Positions 6,246 through 13,918 of a stretch of DNA of 37,235 nucleotides are shown here, one piece after another. The DNA lies in contig NZ_KI271844.1 in the NCBI RefSeq assembly GCF_000469465.1, positions 1-37,235 on the forward strand, given 5' to 3'. Numbering within the stretch: position 1 is the first letter of the stretch; every line of letters starts with the position of its first letter. The notes beneath the pieces were generated by a model. That model worked only from the letters and a program-made list of their open reading frames with translations, searched no databases and was not told the DNA's origin. A program made the position numbers and the translations under genes. Source of the DNA: Gemella bergeri ATCC 700627. Lineage in GTDB: Bacteria; Bacillota; Bacilli; Staphylococcales; Gemellaceae.

Positions 6246-7049
6246 ATGAAAAAATTAAAAATTGATGAAGTAAAACAGATTGAATTGGAAATTTTAGCTT
6301 ACATTGATTCTTTTTGCAAAAAGAATAATATTACATATTTTATTAACTACGGAACACTTTTAGGTGCTGTACGCCATAAAGGTTTTATACCTTGGGATGA
6401 TGATATTGATATTTCAATGACACGGGAAAATTATGAGAAATTTATCAAATTATTCGAAACTGACAGTTCTAAATATAAACTTCTTTCTCTAAAAACCGAT
6501 AATAAATATTATAACAATTTTTTGAAAGTTTTTGATTCTACCACCTTGATTGAAGATACCAGAAATTACAAAACGTATAAAACAGGAATTTTTGTGGATA
6601 TTTTCCCTATGGATACATTTAACGATAAAAATATTGTTGATATTTGCTATCGTCTTGAAAGTTTTAAGTTACTTTCATTTAGCAAAAGAAAAAATATTAT
6701 CTATAAAGATAATATCTTAAAAGACATTATTCGTAGCAGTTTTTGGGCAATACTGCTTCCTATTTCCCCGCGTTTTTTCGCTTTTAAAATTGAAAAAAAC
6801 ATAAATAAATATTTTGATAACAACGGTAACTATATAGCTTTTCTGCCATCAAAACAAAAAGAGCAGGAAGTATTCAAAAGTGATATTTTTGATGACCTTA
6901 TTGAATTACCATTTGAACATCTTATTCTCCCTGCGCCTAAAAATTATGATATAATATTATCTCAATATTACAATAACTACATGGAACTTCCACCGGAAGA
7001 AAAAAGATATAATATACATGAATTTCATGCATATAAATTGGAGGATTAA
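6246..7049 (+). CDS. licD1: LicD family phosphocholine transferase (LicD1 position)
   Basis: This is a 267-aa LicD-family protein (nucleotidyltransferase fold). The core [18 protein letters not shown] is followed by DDDID at residues 51-55, the metal-binding aspartates; the usual C-terminal tail ([13 protein letters not shown]) is present. LicD enzymes move phosphocholine from CDP-choline to sugars of teichoic acid. The gene follows tacF by 12 bases, with an AGGAGA site, and precedes a close paralogue by three bases, as in the pneumococcal tacF-licD1-licD2 operon. Which of the two decorates which residue cannot be told from sequence. Confidence 0.88.
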
Positions 7050-7052
7050 CAG

Positions 7053-7859
7053 ATGAATTATCTTTCTAAAGAAGAGGTAAGAACTCATCAACTGGCTATT
7101 TTAGATTTTATTGATGATGTTTGTAAAAAAAATAATATTAAATATTTTCTTAGCTATGGTACTTTATTGGGAGCTATACGTCATAAAGGTTTTATACCTT
7201 GGGACGATGATATTGACATTTCTCTTTACAGAGCCGACTATGAACGACTTATTGAAGCTGTAGATAACGAACAACACCCACGATATAAAGTATTAGATTA
7301 TAATCACTCTGATTGGTATTTCCATAATTTTGCGGCTATTATCGATACATCAACAATTATTGAAGATAATGTTAAATATAAACGTCATGATACAAGTATT
7401 TTTATTGATATATTCCCTATTGATACCTTTAACGATTTAAGTATTGTGGACAAAAGTTATAAGTATGTCGCACTTAGACAACTATGTTATATTAAAAAAG
7501 AACGTGCTACATATAATGATAATAAAATGAAAGATATTGCACGTATTATATGTTGGTATATATTAAGGTTATTTAACCCACGATTCTTTTACAAAAAAAT
7601 TGATAAATTAATAAAAAAATCAGCTACTAAAAACGGTAAATTTGAAGGCGGTATCGGTATAGGTAAAGATGGTATGAAAGAGATTTTCCCTGCAGGAACT
7701 CTATCTGATATTATATATACCGAATTTGAAGATAGACAATTACCTATCCCAAAAAATTACGATGTATTCCTTTCTCAACTTTATGGCGACTATATGACGC
7801 CTCCTTCACTTGAAATGCAAGAGTGGTATAGTCATAATATTAAAGCATATAAAAAATAA
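7053..7859 (+). CDS. licD2: LicD family phosphocholine transferase (LicD2 position)
   Basis: This 268-aa paralogue of the preceding gene shares the core [18 protein letters not shown] and DDDID at residues 51-55, IFIDIFPIDTFND in the middle and GDYMTPPSLEMQ near the end. It starts three bases after the licD1 stop, with GGAGG eight bases upstream, so the pair is surely co-translated. The high similarity to licD1 over the full length suggests a tandem duplication followed by specialisation on two acceptor sugars, as known in pneumococcus. It ends just before a bidirectional terminator. Confidence 0.88.
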   Translation: MNYLSKEEVRTHQLAILDFIDDVCKKNNIKYFLSYGTLLGAIRHKGFIPWDDDIDISLYRADYERLIEAVDNEQHPRYKVLDYNHSDWYFHNFAAIIDTSTIIEDNVKYKRHDTSIFIDIFPIDTFNDLSIVDKSYKYVALRQLCYIKKERATYNDNKMKDIARIICWYILRLFNPRFFYKKIDKLIKKSATKNGKFEGGIGIGKDGMKEIFPAGTLSDIIYTEFEDRQLPIPKNYDVFLSQLYGDYMTPPSLEMQEWYSHNIKAYKK

Positions 7860-7862
7860 ATA

Positions 7863-7906
7863 AGATAAATACTTATGAAGATGTTATAATTCATAGGTAT
7901 TTATCT
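7863..7906. terminator. Bidirectional terminator between licD2 and the permease gene
   Basis: A 17-base stem (AGATAAATACTTATGAA paired with TTCATAGGTATTTATCT, one G-T pair) with a 10-base loop fills the 52-base gap between convergent genes. An A-rich run precedes it and a T-rich run follows, so it can end transcription in both directions. Confidence 0.8.
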
Positions 7907-7911
7907 ATATT

Positions 7912-9336
7912 TTATATTATATCTAAATCATTTCTATCCTTTAACATATATTGTCTTAATGGAGATATACTTGCTATAAAATATAATAATCCACCAAAAA
8001 TAGCAGTGAATCCGCTACCTGTTGTAAAAAGAAAAATATTACTCTTTATTTCTCCGCTATATGGATTATAAACATATATCATAGCTACTAAGCAGGTAAT
8101 AATAATACATAATAATCCTATAATATTAAAACCGTTCGTATATTCATAGGAATTATGTCCATTCATATTATAAGCCGATTTTAAAGATAATTTTCTTCTT
8201 CTTAAAATTAAATAGTCTACCAATATCATTCCGATAATCGGGCCTTGTATATAAGCAGCTAATGAAATAAAAGCTCCGAAATATTCCTCTACTCCTCCCC
8301 ATATTGTTAAAATACTCACATAAATCATCGCTAATATAACAAGTAATTTATAACTCACTTTAGGCAACCCGCTTTTTACAATCATACAATTTACATAAGA
8401 ACCTGTTCCCTGCGTTCCTATATTTGCAAAAGCAACTAATAATAAACTCAATAAACCTAATGCAGGAGTAGTTAATGTCGCTAACATTGTAGTAGGATCA
8501 CTTTCATAAACACCTGTTTTCACAAACATTGCCAAAGCCATAACCCCACCTGTCGCAACAAAAAACGGAGCAACAAAACCATAAGAAAGCACGGTTCCCC
8601 AATAACCACTTCGTTCCGTTCTGGATAATCTCGGCATAACTAATGCTTGTGTAGACCAAGAAAATGCAAAAGCTACATTTCCTTCCGCTGATAACATAAA
8701 ACGTTGCAGTGCGGTTACTCCCGCTTCTTCAGCCGGTTTAACATTTATTAAATCATTAAACGGAACAGCAGTAAGGCAGATTATAAATACTATAATACCT
8801 ACTGCTAATAAAGCAACTACTAAAAATCTATTTGTCCATTTTATAACTTCAGGGCCTCCCAAGGCTATAATAGTCCCAAGCACCACGCAAAGAGTTCCCA
8901 GTATGGGCGACCAAATATTTGTATTTAAAGACAATCCGAAGTTGTTTGCCAAATTAACCATGGAAGAAGCAAATAAATTCGCTGCTACGGCATACCAGCC
9001 GAAATTGGCTAAACTTATAACAATAGATAATACCGTTACGCCTTTTCTTCCTAAAACCGCCCTAAGCCATATCCATAAGTCTATCCCATATCTAACCGCA
9101 AATAATACCGGTAAACAACTTATTAAAACCCAAACTATATTGAAACAAAATATATTTATAAGCATTTGTTTAAAATTTAAAAATTTAGCTACATATGCTC
9201 CTTGAGTATAACACCATGTTGCAATCGCAAAACCGCTTGTTGATAAGAACAAATCTATAAATGAATACTTTCTTTCGTTTCCTAAAACAGGTACAACCCC
9301 CGTTATGGTTTCTTTTTGTATATAATTACTTTTCAT
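7912..9336 (-). CDS. NCS1-family permease, probable choline (or related) importer
   Basis: This is a 474-aa integral membrane protein with about 12 hydrophobic segments. The NCS1 (cytosine/purine/hydantoin) signature is clear: GIDLWIWLRAVLGRKG in the early loop and IQGPIIGMILVDYLILRRRK near the end. I place the start at the ATG at 9336, not eight codons earlier, because GGAG sits ten bases before it and the ATG overlaps the stop of the small upstream ORF (TAATG). It is the last gene of the licCA operon, the place where pneumococcus has the unrelated choline permease LicB. Choline uptake is therefore a reasonable inference, but the family normally carries nucleobases, thiamine or hydantoins. 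Confidence 0.82.
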   Translation of the reverse strand: MKSNYIQKETITGVVPVLGNERKYSFIDLFLSTSGFAIATWCYTQGAYVAKFLNFKQMLINIFCFNIVWVLISCLPVLFAVRYGIDLWIWLRAVLGRKGVTVLSIVISLANFGWYAVAANLFASSMVNLANNFGLSLNTNIWSPILGTLCVVLGTIIALGGPEVIKWTNRFLVVALLAVGIIVFIICLTAVPFNDLINVKPAEEAGVTALQRFMLSAEGNVAFAFSWSTQALVMPRLSRTERSGYWGTVLSYGFVAPFFVATGGVMALAMFVKTGVYESDPTTMLATLTTPALGLLSLLLVAFANIGTQGTGSYVNCMIVKSGLPKVSYKLLVILAMIYVSILTIWGGVEEYFGAFISLAAYIQGPIIGMILVDYLILRRRKLSLKSAYNMNGHNSYEYTNGFNIIGLLCIIITCLVAMIYVYNPYSGEIKSNIFLFTTGSGFTAIFGGLLYFIASISPLRQYMLKDRNDLDII

Positions 9337-9515
9337 TAACTTATCACTCCAATCGCACATAAATATATTAACACCATACTTGTAATCAATAACCCTATTA
9401 TAATTATCATATCTATATTAGAAATTCTACTAGGAAATATATACGTTGGATCTTCCATTTTTTTTAATCTTTTTTCTGTTTCTTCATATATTAATTCTTC
9501 TATTTTTTTTGTCAC
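9336..9515 (-). CDS. 59-aa single-pass membrane protein coupled to the permease
   Basis: Reading the minus strand from a GTG at 9515 gives an open frame of 59 codons. The N-terminal half is highly charged (TKKIEELIYEETEKRLKKM), then DPTYIFPSRISN, then one hydrophobic segment (about residues 35-57, DMIIIIGLLITSMVLIYL). The stop TAA overlaps the permease ATG in TAATG, the hallmark of translational coupling, and the frame starts 21 bases after the licCA stop with GGAGAG 12 bases upstream of the GTG. The spacing to the RBS is long. I do not recognise the family. It looks like the small accessory subunits known beside some secondary transporters, so it may stabilise or regulate the permease. Confidence 0.7.
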   Translation of the reverse strand: MTKKIEELIYEETEKRLKKMEDPTYIFPSRISNIDMIIIIGLLITSMVLIYLCAIGVIS

Positions 9516-9536
9516 TTTAACATTACTCTCCTATAT

Positions 9537-11291
9537 TTAATTTGTTAATAAGGCTTCTTTTCCGTATAACTTAACGTATTTATACCATATATATAAATAA
9601 TTTCCTACATTTTTTCCCACACTTTCCTGATGTAAAGCCCATAAAAACCAATAAAATGAAATAACTGCCGTATAACCTAAATAATGTTTTTCATAATTTT
9701 TATTAAATTTCTCTCCAAGATACTGTTTTATTATTTGCTTCGCTTCATCGATAGTATAACTAGAACAGGCAATAAATGTACCCAAATCAACAGCAGGATC
9801 AGCCATTCCCGAATACTCCCAATCAATAAGATACATCTTTTCGTCATTATCTATCAAAAAGTTAGGGTCATAACTATCACAATGACACAGACATATTTCT
9901 TTATTATTCAAAACACTTTTTAACTTTTCTACTATGCCTACCAATATATGCATATCTTCAAAGTCATCACGTTTATTTTCAGCTAATATATGCTTGAAAT
10001 TATCTATCTGCTTCCAAATATCAAATGTATAATCTGTTTTGTATCCACTCTTATGTAATTTTTTCAAGTAATTTAACGCCATTTCCACATCATTCTTATT
10101 GTTATAATCCAATGTTCTGGCATTTTCTATAAAATATGATATTTTCCAACCCTTATCTTTATCTATGTATATATATGTGTCGTCAATTCCCAAGCACTTA
10201 GCCACTTGCATTGATTGTGCTTCACTTGCCCTACTTATATAAGAATCAGTTCCTCTTCCGGGGTGTCTGTATACATAATTTTTATTATCTACAGAAAATT
10301 TAAATGATGTATTGGTCATACCGGATTTAATAGGCTCTATTTTTTTTATGTCATGTTCATTACAATTCAAAACATTGCATATATTTTTCAATATTTCCGA
10401 GTTGGAATTACTTAAATAATTACTGTCAAACTCTCTCAATTCGTCCAAAGAATCAAATTCTTGTATTTGTTCTTTGTCATAATGCCGTATATACATATCC
10501 AATTCAGAAACATATCGTATATATAAATCTTCCCATAAACCATTCTTAGTAACTTGTCTTGGATATTCTTTTTCTAATATATCTACAAATTTTTCGCTAA
10601 AACTCTTATTGAAAAATACATGTCCCAACATTGTCCATGAATTTTCCCCGCCTATTTCTACATTTGTTATCTTCCCTTTTTTATCACATTGTATGCAATA
10701 TTCATTAGTTTCGCCATCTTCATATACCGCAGAATAATAAGATCTATACACATATCTTTCAAATGGATTTTTAACAAAATAATTATCAGAAGAACATATA
10801 TAAGTGTTTGCCAATAAATCTTTTACTAACATTAATGATGATGTGTTATTATACTTATAATATTCTTCATTAACTACAATTTTTACGCCATATTTTTCTT
10901 CCAGATAAAACATCTTTTCTTTCATATAACCGACCACAAGTATTATATCTTTAATACCCACAGCCTTTAATTGCTCTATTTGGCGTTCTATAAGTAGCTC
11001 TCCTTTTACTTTTAACAAACCTTTAGGTTTCTCGTACGAAAGTGGAGCAAAACGAGTACTCATACCCGCAGCAAGTATTATTGCATTATTAACGGCAAAC
11101 GGTTCTAATGACTGCAAACCGCTTTTCGTCAATGTTAAATTTTCAGTTATTAAATTTTCATCTTTTAATTTTTTTAACAATATATTTACTTTCCCTAAAG
11201 ACATACGTGTCTGTTCGGCCAACATACGTTGTGTATGTGTTGTTTTATTTAACAATTGTGTTAATATATTAAACTCTGATAAAGTTAGCAT
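9537..11291 (-). CDS. licCA: wHTH-LicC-LicA fusion: phosphocholine cytidylyltransferase and choline kinase
   Basis: This 584-aa protein has three parts. Residues 1-65 are a MarR-like winged helix (TLSEFNILTQLL, then a recognition helix in MSLGKVNILLKKL). Residues ~68-290 are a LicC-type nucleotidyltransferase with LAAGMSTRFAPLSYEKPKG at 73-91. Residues ~310-584 are a choline-kinase/APH fold with CHCDSYDPNFLID (about 469-481) and LIDWEYSGMADPAVDLG. Together they phosphorylate choline and activate it to CDP-choline for the LicD enzymes. I use the ATG at 11291, preceded by AGAGAGG; an earlier ATG has no site. LicC-LicA fusions are known, for example in Treponema denticola. The N-terminal DNA-binding-like domain suggests self-regulation or is only a structural cap. 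Confidence 0.9.
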   Translation of the reverse strand: MLTLSEFNILTQLLNKTTHTQRMLAEQTRMSLGKVNILLKKLKDENLITENLTLTKSGLQSLEPFAVNNAIILAAGMSTRFAPLSYEKPKGLLKVKGELLIERQIEQLKAVGIKDIILVVGYMKEKMFYLEEKYGVKIVVNEEYYKYNNTSSLMLVKDLLANTYICSSDNYFVKNPFERYVYRSYYSAVYEDGETNEYCIQCDKKGKITNVEIGGENSWTMLGHVFFNKSFSEKFVDILEKEYPRQVTKNGLWEDLYIRYVSELDMYIRHYDKEQIQEFDSLDELREFDSNYLSNSNSEILKNICNVLNCNEHDIKKIEPIKSGMTNTSFKFSVDNKNYVYRHPGRGTDSYISRASEAQSMQVAKCLGIDDTYIYIDKDKGWKISYFIENARTLDYNNKNDVEMALNYLKKLHKSGYKTDYTFDIWKQIDNFKHILAENKRDDFEDMHILVGIVEKLKSVLNNKEICLCHCDSYDPNFLIDNDEKMYLIDWEYSGMADPAVDLGTFIACSSYTIDEAKQIIKQYLGEKFNKNYEKHYLGYTAVISFYWFLWALHQESVGKNVGNYLYIWYKYVKLYGKEALLTN

Positions 11292-11356
11292 TAATAATCC
11301 TCTCTTTATGTTCATTATTTGTATATTCTTTTGAAAAATGAACCTTTTATTATAAA

Positions 11357-11417: not shown

Positions 11418-12458
11418 CTACAACTTATAGTTAATAACCCCTAAAATATCTTTATCCAAGTTAGCCAATACTTGTAAATTTTCTTCAAAATTTTTATATC
11501 GTGTAACTCCATACTCTTCTATAAATAGTACATTATCGGCTTCGATTAAAGATTGTACATCATCAACACTTCTTACTTTTACATCAACTGACAAATATTT
11601 TTTATATTCATGTTTAAATTTTTCTAATACTTTAGCGTTTGTTCCAATAAATACCAATGATTGATTATTTATCTTATAGTCAATTATCTTTTTCAAATTA
11701 TCCATAGTAGTTATAGTTGATACAAAACCTATATTATATTTTTTATAATCTCCTGCCCTATTAATTGTCGGATTAAAAATATATACTATTATATTAGCGA
11801 TTATTACTAAAATTATTGATAATATCCCTAATATTCCTAAACGCATTATTAGTTTTGTTTTATTAACTGCAACAGATTTTTTGCCGCCTGCAACTAATTC
11901 TTGAGAATTTATAGTATCCAATTTATTAATTTTTACATCAGAGTATGTATCTTTAAATTTGTCGATCAATAAATCTAATTTTTTCTCAATTATTTCATTA
12001 GCATTTTTACTGGAAGTTAACACTTTTACAGATACCCCTGCATTGTTAATCAATGGATTTACTATTATTTTCTTGTCCCAATAATCAAAATTAGAATTTT
12101 TAAGGGTTGTTTCTCCGGTATCTAATTCATTAGCAATTTTTGCCATCTCTTCAGATGATAAATCATTAAATAAAAATGCTCCATTTATATTAGATTCTAA
12201 TAATTTTGCATAAAAATCACTATACCCTCCAACTTTATTTTTATTGGAATTTTGTTGTTCTTCTAATGGAGATGTAATTTTGTAACTTAAATATGTTGAA
12301 TAATTTGTTGTATCTTTTACCGTTGTTTTACTGTTTATAGCTTTTAATGTATACGGTATTGCAATAGCACAAAATAATACTATTACGGCTATTATATTTA
12401 TTATCTTCTTTTTATATATATTAGCAAATAAATCTGCTGTTGAATAATTTTCAAACAT
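11418..12458 (-). CDS. Wzz-like polysaccharide co-polymerase with a degenerate kinase-like C-terminal domain
   Basis: This 346-aa protein has TM1 (about 18-38), a ~165-residue outside domain, and TM2 (about 204-228) ending in IFNP, the layout of Wzz/Wzd chain-length proteins. Unlike CpsC it continues for ~105 residues inside the cell. That tail reads like a tyrosine autokinase or MinD-type ATPase whose nucleotide site is gone: SLVFIGTNAKV (267-277) falls where Walker A should be but has no GKS/T, while ADNVLFIEEYGVTRYKN and KDILGVINYKL match the kinase's last two strands. It overlaps the upstream polymerase gene by eight bases, so it is probably the polymerase partner. From memory, pneumococcal TarP has a partner called TarQ; this could be its counterpart, unverified. 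Confidence 0.7.
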   Translation of the reverse strand: MFENYSTADLFANIYKKKIINIIAVIVLFCAIAIPYTLKAINSKTTVKDTTNYSTYLSYKITSPLEEQQNSNKNKVGGYSDFYAKLLESNINGAFLFNDLSSEEMAKIANELDTGETTLKNSNFDYWDKKIIVNPLINNAGVSVKVLTSSKNANEIIEKKLDLLIDKFKDTYSDVKINKLDTINSQELVAGGKKSVAVNKTKLIMRLGILGILSIILVIIANIIVYIFNPTINRAGDYKKYNIGFVSTITTMDNLKKIIDYKINNQSLVFIGTNAKVLEKFKHEYKKYLSVDVKVRSVDDVQSLIEADNVLFIEEYGVTRYKNFEENLQVLANLDKDILGVINYKL

Positions 12459-13905
12459 TAATTCTCTTCTCCTTGTGTCGTATATTGTGTTTTTTTGTCA
12501 TCGTTTTAGCTCCAAAGAATATTATCGCAATAATCCCCCAAAACTGCATTGTAAATAAATTAAGGAAACTTTCCGAAAAGCTGCTGCGGGGCATAAAAAA
12601 CAAGTTATTTAAAATAAATAATCCTATCCCGAACAATAATATTCTATCTGAATAAGCTATCTTCATTATTAGAACAAATAATACTCCCAGTAAAATACTA
12701 AATACAAAAACTCCTATAAATCCGAAATCAGTATATAACTCCATTATATAACTACTTCCAATGCCATGCCCATCCAAGTATTTTTCTTTTAACGTTATAT
12801 AAGAAATATTATGTGCATAACTATTACTCTTTAATGCCAACTCTGTACTGTTGGTAGTATGTTCAAACGCCTTACCCCCGAATAAAACACCAATATTTCC
12901 CTTAGTAAAATATTCTATAATCGGGCCAAAAGTATAACTGCTCACTTCTCTTACGGGTAAATTACTGTTGTAAAGATAGCCATGTGCCAAAACCCCAAAA
13001 CTTGTTCCTTGTTTGTATATAAAATCAAGGAATATATCTGAAAAACTATTACCTGCTACCTCTACATTATCACGAACATAATTAAGTATTCCCATAATAA
13101 TCATTAATACGGGTGTTCCTATATAAATAATCAATTTTTCTTTGAAGCCTATCCACAACCCCCGCTCTCCTTGATTACGCATGAAATAATATACAAAAGC
13201 AAATAACAAGCTAAGGATAAACGGATTACGTGTCCCAATCAACAGATGAATTGCATTGGCAAAAATAAGAGCTAAAAGTACCAATGTTGCATAAAGTTTT
13301 CTTGGTTTTGTCGCTAAATATATACATAAAGAATATAACATAAATGATGATAGTATATAAGTAAAATATGGTAATTCACTTTTAAAATTGGCGTAATAAT
13401 CATAATATGTTGTATTTAATCTAAAAAGTAATCGTTCAACTAATCTCAATACATAAAATGGATATGATAATCCAAAAATAACTAATGCCATTAAACGAAC
13501 CTTTTTTATATATCCCATATTTTTATTTTTCATTTTATTTTGTAGCGGTACCCTTTTAGTTGTAATAATACTACCTATGTGTAATCCTATAATAGATATT
13601 ATAACGACTAAAAATGAAAATTTATACACATCCCCTTGATATGTGCTCAATGCTCCCGTTTTAAAATAATCAATTGTTGGCCTTGACACTAAAAAAATAA
13701 AAATTGTAATATAGAATATTAAATGTATAATGTAATACTCTATATTATTAAAACACCATAGTATACAACATAATAGTAATGAAAGGAGTGTGTAAAATAA
13801 TATTGATATTTCATTACTTATAATATACCTGATACCTAAACAAATAGTTATTGTAGTGCTTAATAATGTAAAAAGAAAATATATTCTTTTTCTATCTATA
13901 CTCAA
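12451..13905 (-). CDS. Wzy-type repeat-unit polymerase, candidate teichoic acid polymerase (TarP-like)
   Basis: This is a ~484-aa protein with about 12 membrane segments and a large outside loop (about residues 285-380, with NSYAHNISYITLKEKYLDGHG), typical of O-antigen/capsule Wzy polymerases. It would join lipid-linked repeats on the outer face. There is no ATG near the start. I choose the TTG at 13905 because AAGGAGG lies seven bases before it; a TTG two codons earlier is too close to the site. It sits after GT4 and GT2 genes and before the Wzz-like gene. That order matches the pneumococcal cluster holding the teichoic acid polymerase, so TarP function is inferred from context, not from residue identity. 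Confidence 0.78.
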   Translation of the reverse strand: MSIDRKRIYFLFTLLSTTITICLGIRYIISNEISILFYTLLSLLLCCILWCFNNIEYYIIHLIFYITIFIFLVSRPTIDYFKTGALSTYQGDVYKFSFLVVIISIIGLHIGSIITTKRVPLQNKMKNKNMGYIKKVRLMALVIFGLSYPFYVLRLVERLLFRLNTTYYDYYANFKSELPYFTYILSSFMLYSLCIYLATKPRKLYATLVLLALIFANAIHLLIGTRNPFILSLLFAFVYYFMRNQGERGLWIGFKEKLIIYIGTPVLMIIMGILNYVRDNVEVAGNSFSDIFLDFIYKQGTSFGVLAHGYLYNSNLPVREVSSYTFGPIIEYFTKGNIGVLFGGKAFEHTTNSTELALKSNSYAHNISYITLKEKYLDGHGIGSSYIMELYTDFGFIGVFVFSILLGVLFVLIMKIAYSDRILLFGIGLFILNNLFFMPRSSFSESFLNLFTMQFWGIIAIIFFGAKTMTKKHNIRHKEKRINV

Positions 13906-13918
13906 AGTCAAGCCTCCT

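Follow-up and report, generated by a model that had tools for sequence, protein, structure and literature searches.

A conserved single-span membrane protein whose gene is translationally coupled to that of an NCS1-type permease in a choline operon: a probable accessory subunit of the carrier

The question raised by this locus is what is encoded in the short interval between a licCA gene and a permease gene in a choline operon of Gemella bergeri, and to which of its two neighbors the product belongs. The window, i.e. the whole stretch of DNA analyzed (37,235 nucleotides), contains on its minus strand, in this order, licCA, a 21-base gap, the small gene and the permease gene, the last two overlapping (Table 1). 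As originally predicted, the interval holds a GTG-started frame of 59 codons that ends in TAATG; a likely ribosome-binding site precedes it. An in-frame ATG at position 9360, upstream of the assigned permease start, gives an open reading frame of 482 residues; the permease homologues align from the start at 9336, not from this ATG. The 1.6 Mb genome contains a single small gene, a single PF02133 permease and a single LicCA-type fusion.

Table 1. Features of the choline operon and of its surroundings in the window
Feature	Position	Strand	Basis or detail
Small gene, 59-residue membrane protein	9336..9515	-	GTG start 9515-9513, TAA stop 9338-9336
NCS1 permease (PF02133), 474 residues from the ATG at 9336	7912..9336	-	Pfam, NCBIfam, structure model
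TAATG overlap of small-gene stop and permease start (ATG 9336-9334)	9334..9338	-	Sequence; same or nearly the same junction in homologues
GGAGTGAT, likely permease ribosome-binding site inside the last codons of the small gene	9343..9350	-	6 bases before the ATG
AGGAGAG, likely ribosome-binding site of the small gene	9526..9532	-	10 bases before the GTG
LicCA-type protein: winged-helix domain, NTP transferase, choline/APH kinase	9537..11315	-	Pfam/NCBIfam
LicD-family phosphocholine transferase, convergent with the operon	6246..7049	+	Pfam
Second LicD-family phosphocholine transferase	7053..7859	+	Pfam

The permease was assigned to the NCS1 family by its match to PF02133 (71.9 bits for a cut-off of 23.5, E = 5.9e-20). 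Its score against TIGR00800 (ncs1) was 61.8 bits, under the cut-off of 353.1, which places it, on sequence grounds, in a divergent branch of the family. The best matches of its structure model were Mhp1 and CodB (Foldseek ranks 1-5), with Mhp1 also recognized by profile (E = 1.4e-14); more distant structural matches included the choline carrier CHT1 and MAP17-bound SGLT2. Since the SGLT2-MAP17 complexes match the permease model, a one-span partner bound to this fold would, by analogy, have a solved precedent.

The small gene is a conserved protein-coding gene. A scan of contigs with the permease yielded 63 loci, two of which were cut off at a contig end; in all of the 61 with intact upstream DNA, a small-protein homologue of about 60 residues lies directly upstream of the permease (HMM E-values from 6e-17 to 2e-31). 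Neither loss of the frame nor stop codons in the homologous gaps, either of which would speak against a gene, were found. The 61 relatives span Gemella, Streptococcus, Parvimonas, Lachnospiraceae, Treponema, Selenomonas and Coriobacteria, and many bacteria of the gut and mouth carry the pair of small gene and permease. Among the genomes searched, Gemella sanguinis comes closest (57% identity for the small protein, 79% for the permease); in the other seven sampled genomes of the genus, neither the permease nor the small gene was found. Far from a dN/dS near 1, a median of 0.154 was obtained over 121 unsaturated pairs (Nei-Gojobori), indicating purifying selection, and in 19 chosen pairs the mean pS/pN was 0.50/0.14 in frame versus about 0.2/0.2 in the two other frames. 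The signal was weaker (dN/dS 0.56) when the window was paired with locus L021 alone. A chance open reading frame is ruled out by the 61 homologues together with the in-frame selection.

Coupling to the permease is also conserved. Junctions were examined in 59 loci plus the window: 28 of these 60 overlap as TAATG or TGATG and 8 as ATGA, while in 22 the permease start lies 3 to 6 bases past the first base of the stop, so that 58 are coupled or nearly coupled; the two longer junctions both come from Clostridium aminophilum. In 59 of 60 homologues, a Shine-Dalgarno-like motif occurs within the last 24 nucleotides of the small gene. Conservation, junctions and selection therefore strongly support the original description: a membrane protein with one span, whose translation is coupled to that of an NCS1 permease. 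Across genomes, the small gene is adjacent to and co-translated with a LeuT-fold carrier, as is the case for accessory subunits of such carriers.

The AlphaFold model of the small protein, built from the homologue alignment (mean pLDDT 92), predicts an amphipathic helix (residues 5-21), a loop and a membrane helix (residues 33-55). It has the single membrane helix and the soluble extension of LeuT-fold accessory subunits, with a proposed orientation that would leave this extension in the cytoplasm; almost all charged residues precede the membrane helix. The loop carries the motif Y25-x-F27-P. Among 51 sequences, E12, R16, M20, Y25 and D35 are invariant, and a direct reading of the sequence puts E12, R16 and M20 one turn apart on the same helix face. 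In a single-chain AlphaFold model in which the small gene was read through into the permease (TAA/TAG taken as residues), pLDDT fell below 50 around the forced junction. The small protein matched no Pfam or NCBIfam family, and only in this sense does the earlier label 'unannotated' hold; profile searches against Pfam, NCBIfam and the PDB returned weak matches to unrelated helices only. When the 51 members were compared with Pfam-A at E-values up to 1, the MetS and SSS small-subunit families were absent among the 25 matches listed.

Gene order indicates that the small protein belongs to the permease and not to the licCA gap. Although licCA precedes the small gene in most loci, the order is small gene-permease-licCA in eight of them (L051, L053, L059, L061, L062, L080, L082 and L083), and three loci (L032, L033 and L037) have the whole unit duplicated, with each permease keeping a small gene of its own. 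The reversed order and the distant loci described below rule out a mere filler of the gap. Pairwise distances between small proteins (53 loci) correlate with those of the permease (r 0.83) better than with those of LicA (0.72) or LicC (0.64); the partial correlation of small protein and permease given LicC is 0.70, versus 0.11 for small protein and LicC given the permease. These values are descriptive and not probabilities, because the loci are related by descent.

The association also holds at a larger distance and is restricted to one branch of the family. When 398 genomes of the phylum were searched with a profile, five convincing members of the small-protein family were recovered, that of the window included; two more turned up in a related genome. 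Every one of these members is encoded directly upstream of an NCS1 permease. By contrast, among 70 control NCS1 loci from the 123 genomes of this sample with PF02133 matches, the small-protein HMM gave no match better than E = 1. A tree of 60 permeases places the 20 that have a small gene together on one side of a branch (SH-aLRT 100) and the forty that lack it on the other; the label changes once on the tree, compared to 17 times on average when shuffled, and none of 500 shuffles was as low. Clade members devoid of the small gene may exist, since the branch leading to the clade is long (1.35) and part of the NCS1 loci were read. Linkage, clade restriction and co-divergence thus lend good support, from comparative sequence data, to the part of the original prediction that made the small protein a subunit of the carrier. 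Its argument from the place of the gene between choline kinase and carrier fails as a general one, because licCA is downstream in eight loci and absent from the distant ones.

As regards the substrate, three distant loci, without licCA, lie beside dimethylamine/trimethylamine methyltransferases, corrinoid proteins, pyrrolysine genes or a choline-dehydrogenase-like gene, and a fourth lies beside a methyltetrahydrofolate:corrinoid methyltransferase; the methyltransferase genes near distant members are of the MtbB, MtbC/MtgC and MttB types. Given these neighbors, and the two LicD genes beside the operon of the window, choline and other methylated amines are the probable substrates of the clade, choline being read only from the gene neighborhood. 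The coriobacterial loci, which mostly have no choline gene nearby, count against choline. A 2026 report describes a bacterial NCS1 carrier for metformin, a cation (PMC13390362), so that cationic substrates are not new to the family. Note that in L098 and L101 the NCS1 and small genes are found within methylamine methyltransferase loci, with pyrrolysine genes in L098, where the MtbB-type gene is split over two open reading frames, as expected for an in-frame pyrrolysine codon. In the coriobacterial pairs L072 and L075-L078, no licCA was found in the fetched DNA, and the neighbors (MetA, HisIE/HisJ) give no clue to the substrate.

The occurrence of the same pair in so many gut and mouth bacteria makes a second transporter subunit the probable function of the small protein. 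We infer that it probably serves an NCS1-type importer of choline and related methylated amines as a dedicated accessory (beta) subunit; interaction, role and substrate are all part of this inference. The small protein would insert so that the charged N-terminal helix stays cytoplasmic and the short C-terminus faces outward; the stripe formed by E12, R16 and M20, along with the Y-x-F-P loop, would dock on the cytoplasmic side of the permease, and the membrane helix would rest against the permease core. The carrier would depend on this arrangement to fold, to remain stable or to gate, and the overlap in translation would hold the two proteins near a 1:1 ratio. In the window, choline would be the substrate, handed on first to LicCA and next to LicD. 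A wider proposal is that the whole branch consists of obligate two-component importers of choline and methylated amines, each with a co-translated one-span subunit, which would provide both the first NCS1 accessory subunit and the first NCS1 choline carrier; we regard this as having an even chance of being correct.

The same linkage and selection would also be expected of a regulatory partner that is not an obligate subunit and that inhibits the permease, alters its specificity or controls its turnover. Small one-span regulators of transporters are well documented, e.g. MgtS, SgrT, AcrZ and MgtU; those listed are mostly shorter, and their carriers are encoded elsewhere or separately controlled (PMC10710835). 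A partner that is not strictly required would more easily explain the situation in the S. oralis group, where four loci (L024, L025, L028 and L030) carry a second permease in tandem, around locus positions 7392-8973, behind a remnant of the small gene reduced to the membrane helix and the ribosome-binding site. Since this second permease is intact (471 codons) and under purifying selection (pS about 0.2, pN about 0.01), it may share the partner of the first copy or dispense with it. In L026, the second copy looks disrupted. We nevertheless consider a regulator unlikely: co-translation is near universal and gene order is fixed, which favors a constitutive partner.

Two further readings are far less probable. 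If translation of the frame served mainly to open the ribosome-binding site of the permease, the peptide itself being functionless, the Shine-Dalgarno-like motif near its end would be accounted for, as would the fact that this coding stretch is among the most conserved. However, the five invariant residues are far from the junction, both halves of the frame show low dN/dS, and the protein retains its single span from one phylum to another; moreover, no Rfam element was found in the window, which speaks against an RNA element there. We give such a leader very little credence. No more credible is a partner of LicCA that would tether this choline-activating enzyme to the membrane beside the carrier: it would make use of the charged, presumably cytoplasmic helix and agree with the adjacency of licCA in most loci, yet homologues accompany NCS1 genes lacking a nearby licCA, and the divergence of the small protein follows that of the permease and not that of LicC.

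An accessory subunit would have parallels in related carriers. MetS, the small subunit of the sodium-coupled methionine carrier MetP (NSS family), is a one-span protein of about 60 residues that is encoded beside its carrier and needed with it. It resembles the small protein in size, in its single span and in the location of its gene beside that of a LeuT-fold carrier; the carriers, however, belong to different families, and no member matches the MetS Pfam family among the matches listed. MAP17 (PDZK1IP1) is likewise a small single-span partner of LeuT-fold carriers, SGLT1 and SGLT2, with solved complexes; unlike the small protein, it is eukaryotic and pairs with the SSS family, and no sequence relation between the two was found. 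The small subunits of bacterial SSS carriers (DUF485/YjcH with ActP, YhdT/DUF997 with PanF, and DUF4212) are also short membrane proteins, whose genes directly precede, and often overlap, that of a LeuT-fold carrier, but they usually have two spans and about 80-100 residues, and the small-protein members gave no Pfam match to them among the matches listed. Mhp1 and CodB, whose structures are textbook models of LeuT-fold transport, share fold and family with the permease but transport nucleobases or hydantoin and, to our knowledge, have been studied as single polypeptides without a small partner. In the part of the literature covered, we found no small subunit of an NCS1 carrier. If the pairing is real, NCS1 carriers recruit small subunits as NSS and SSS carriers do, the pair is a tractable system for learning what such subunits do, and the permease expressed alone may prove inactive.

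In the Lic-1 pathway, the place held here by the NCS1 carrier and its small partner is taken by LicB, a DMT-type protein. The two would have the same role, LicB being the presumed choline importer for LicA, LicC and LicD (PMC10434233). The locus suggests how certain bacteria of the mouth and gut may take up choline without LicB, whether to decorate their surface with phosphocholine or to make lipids, and the distant loci suggest how methylamine-using bacteria import their substrates; were the two-component reading true, it would give oral and gut bacteria an alternative to LicB for phosphocholine decoration. A LicB may exist elsewhere in the G. bergeri genome, which encodes three EamA proteins.

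Finally, the LicCA-type protein of the window has an N-terminal winged helix (PF13412) fused to its cytidylyltransferase and choline kinase, which suggests that the enzyme may also bind DNA. This domain was detected in most relatives with licCA upstream, but in none of the eight whose licCA follows the permease. The choline operon is directly preceded (11418-13911, minus strand) by genes for a TarQ-type teichoic acid protein and an O-antigen-polymerase-like protein, which mark a teichoic acid region.
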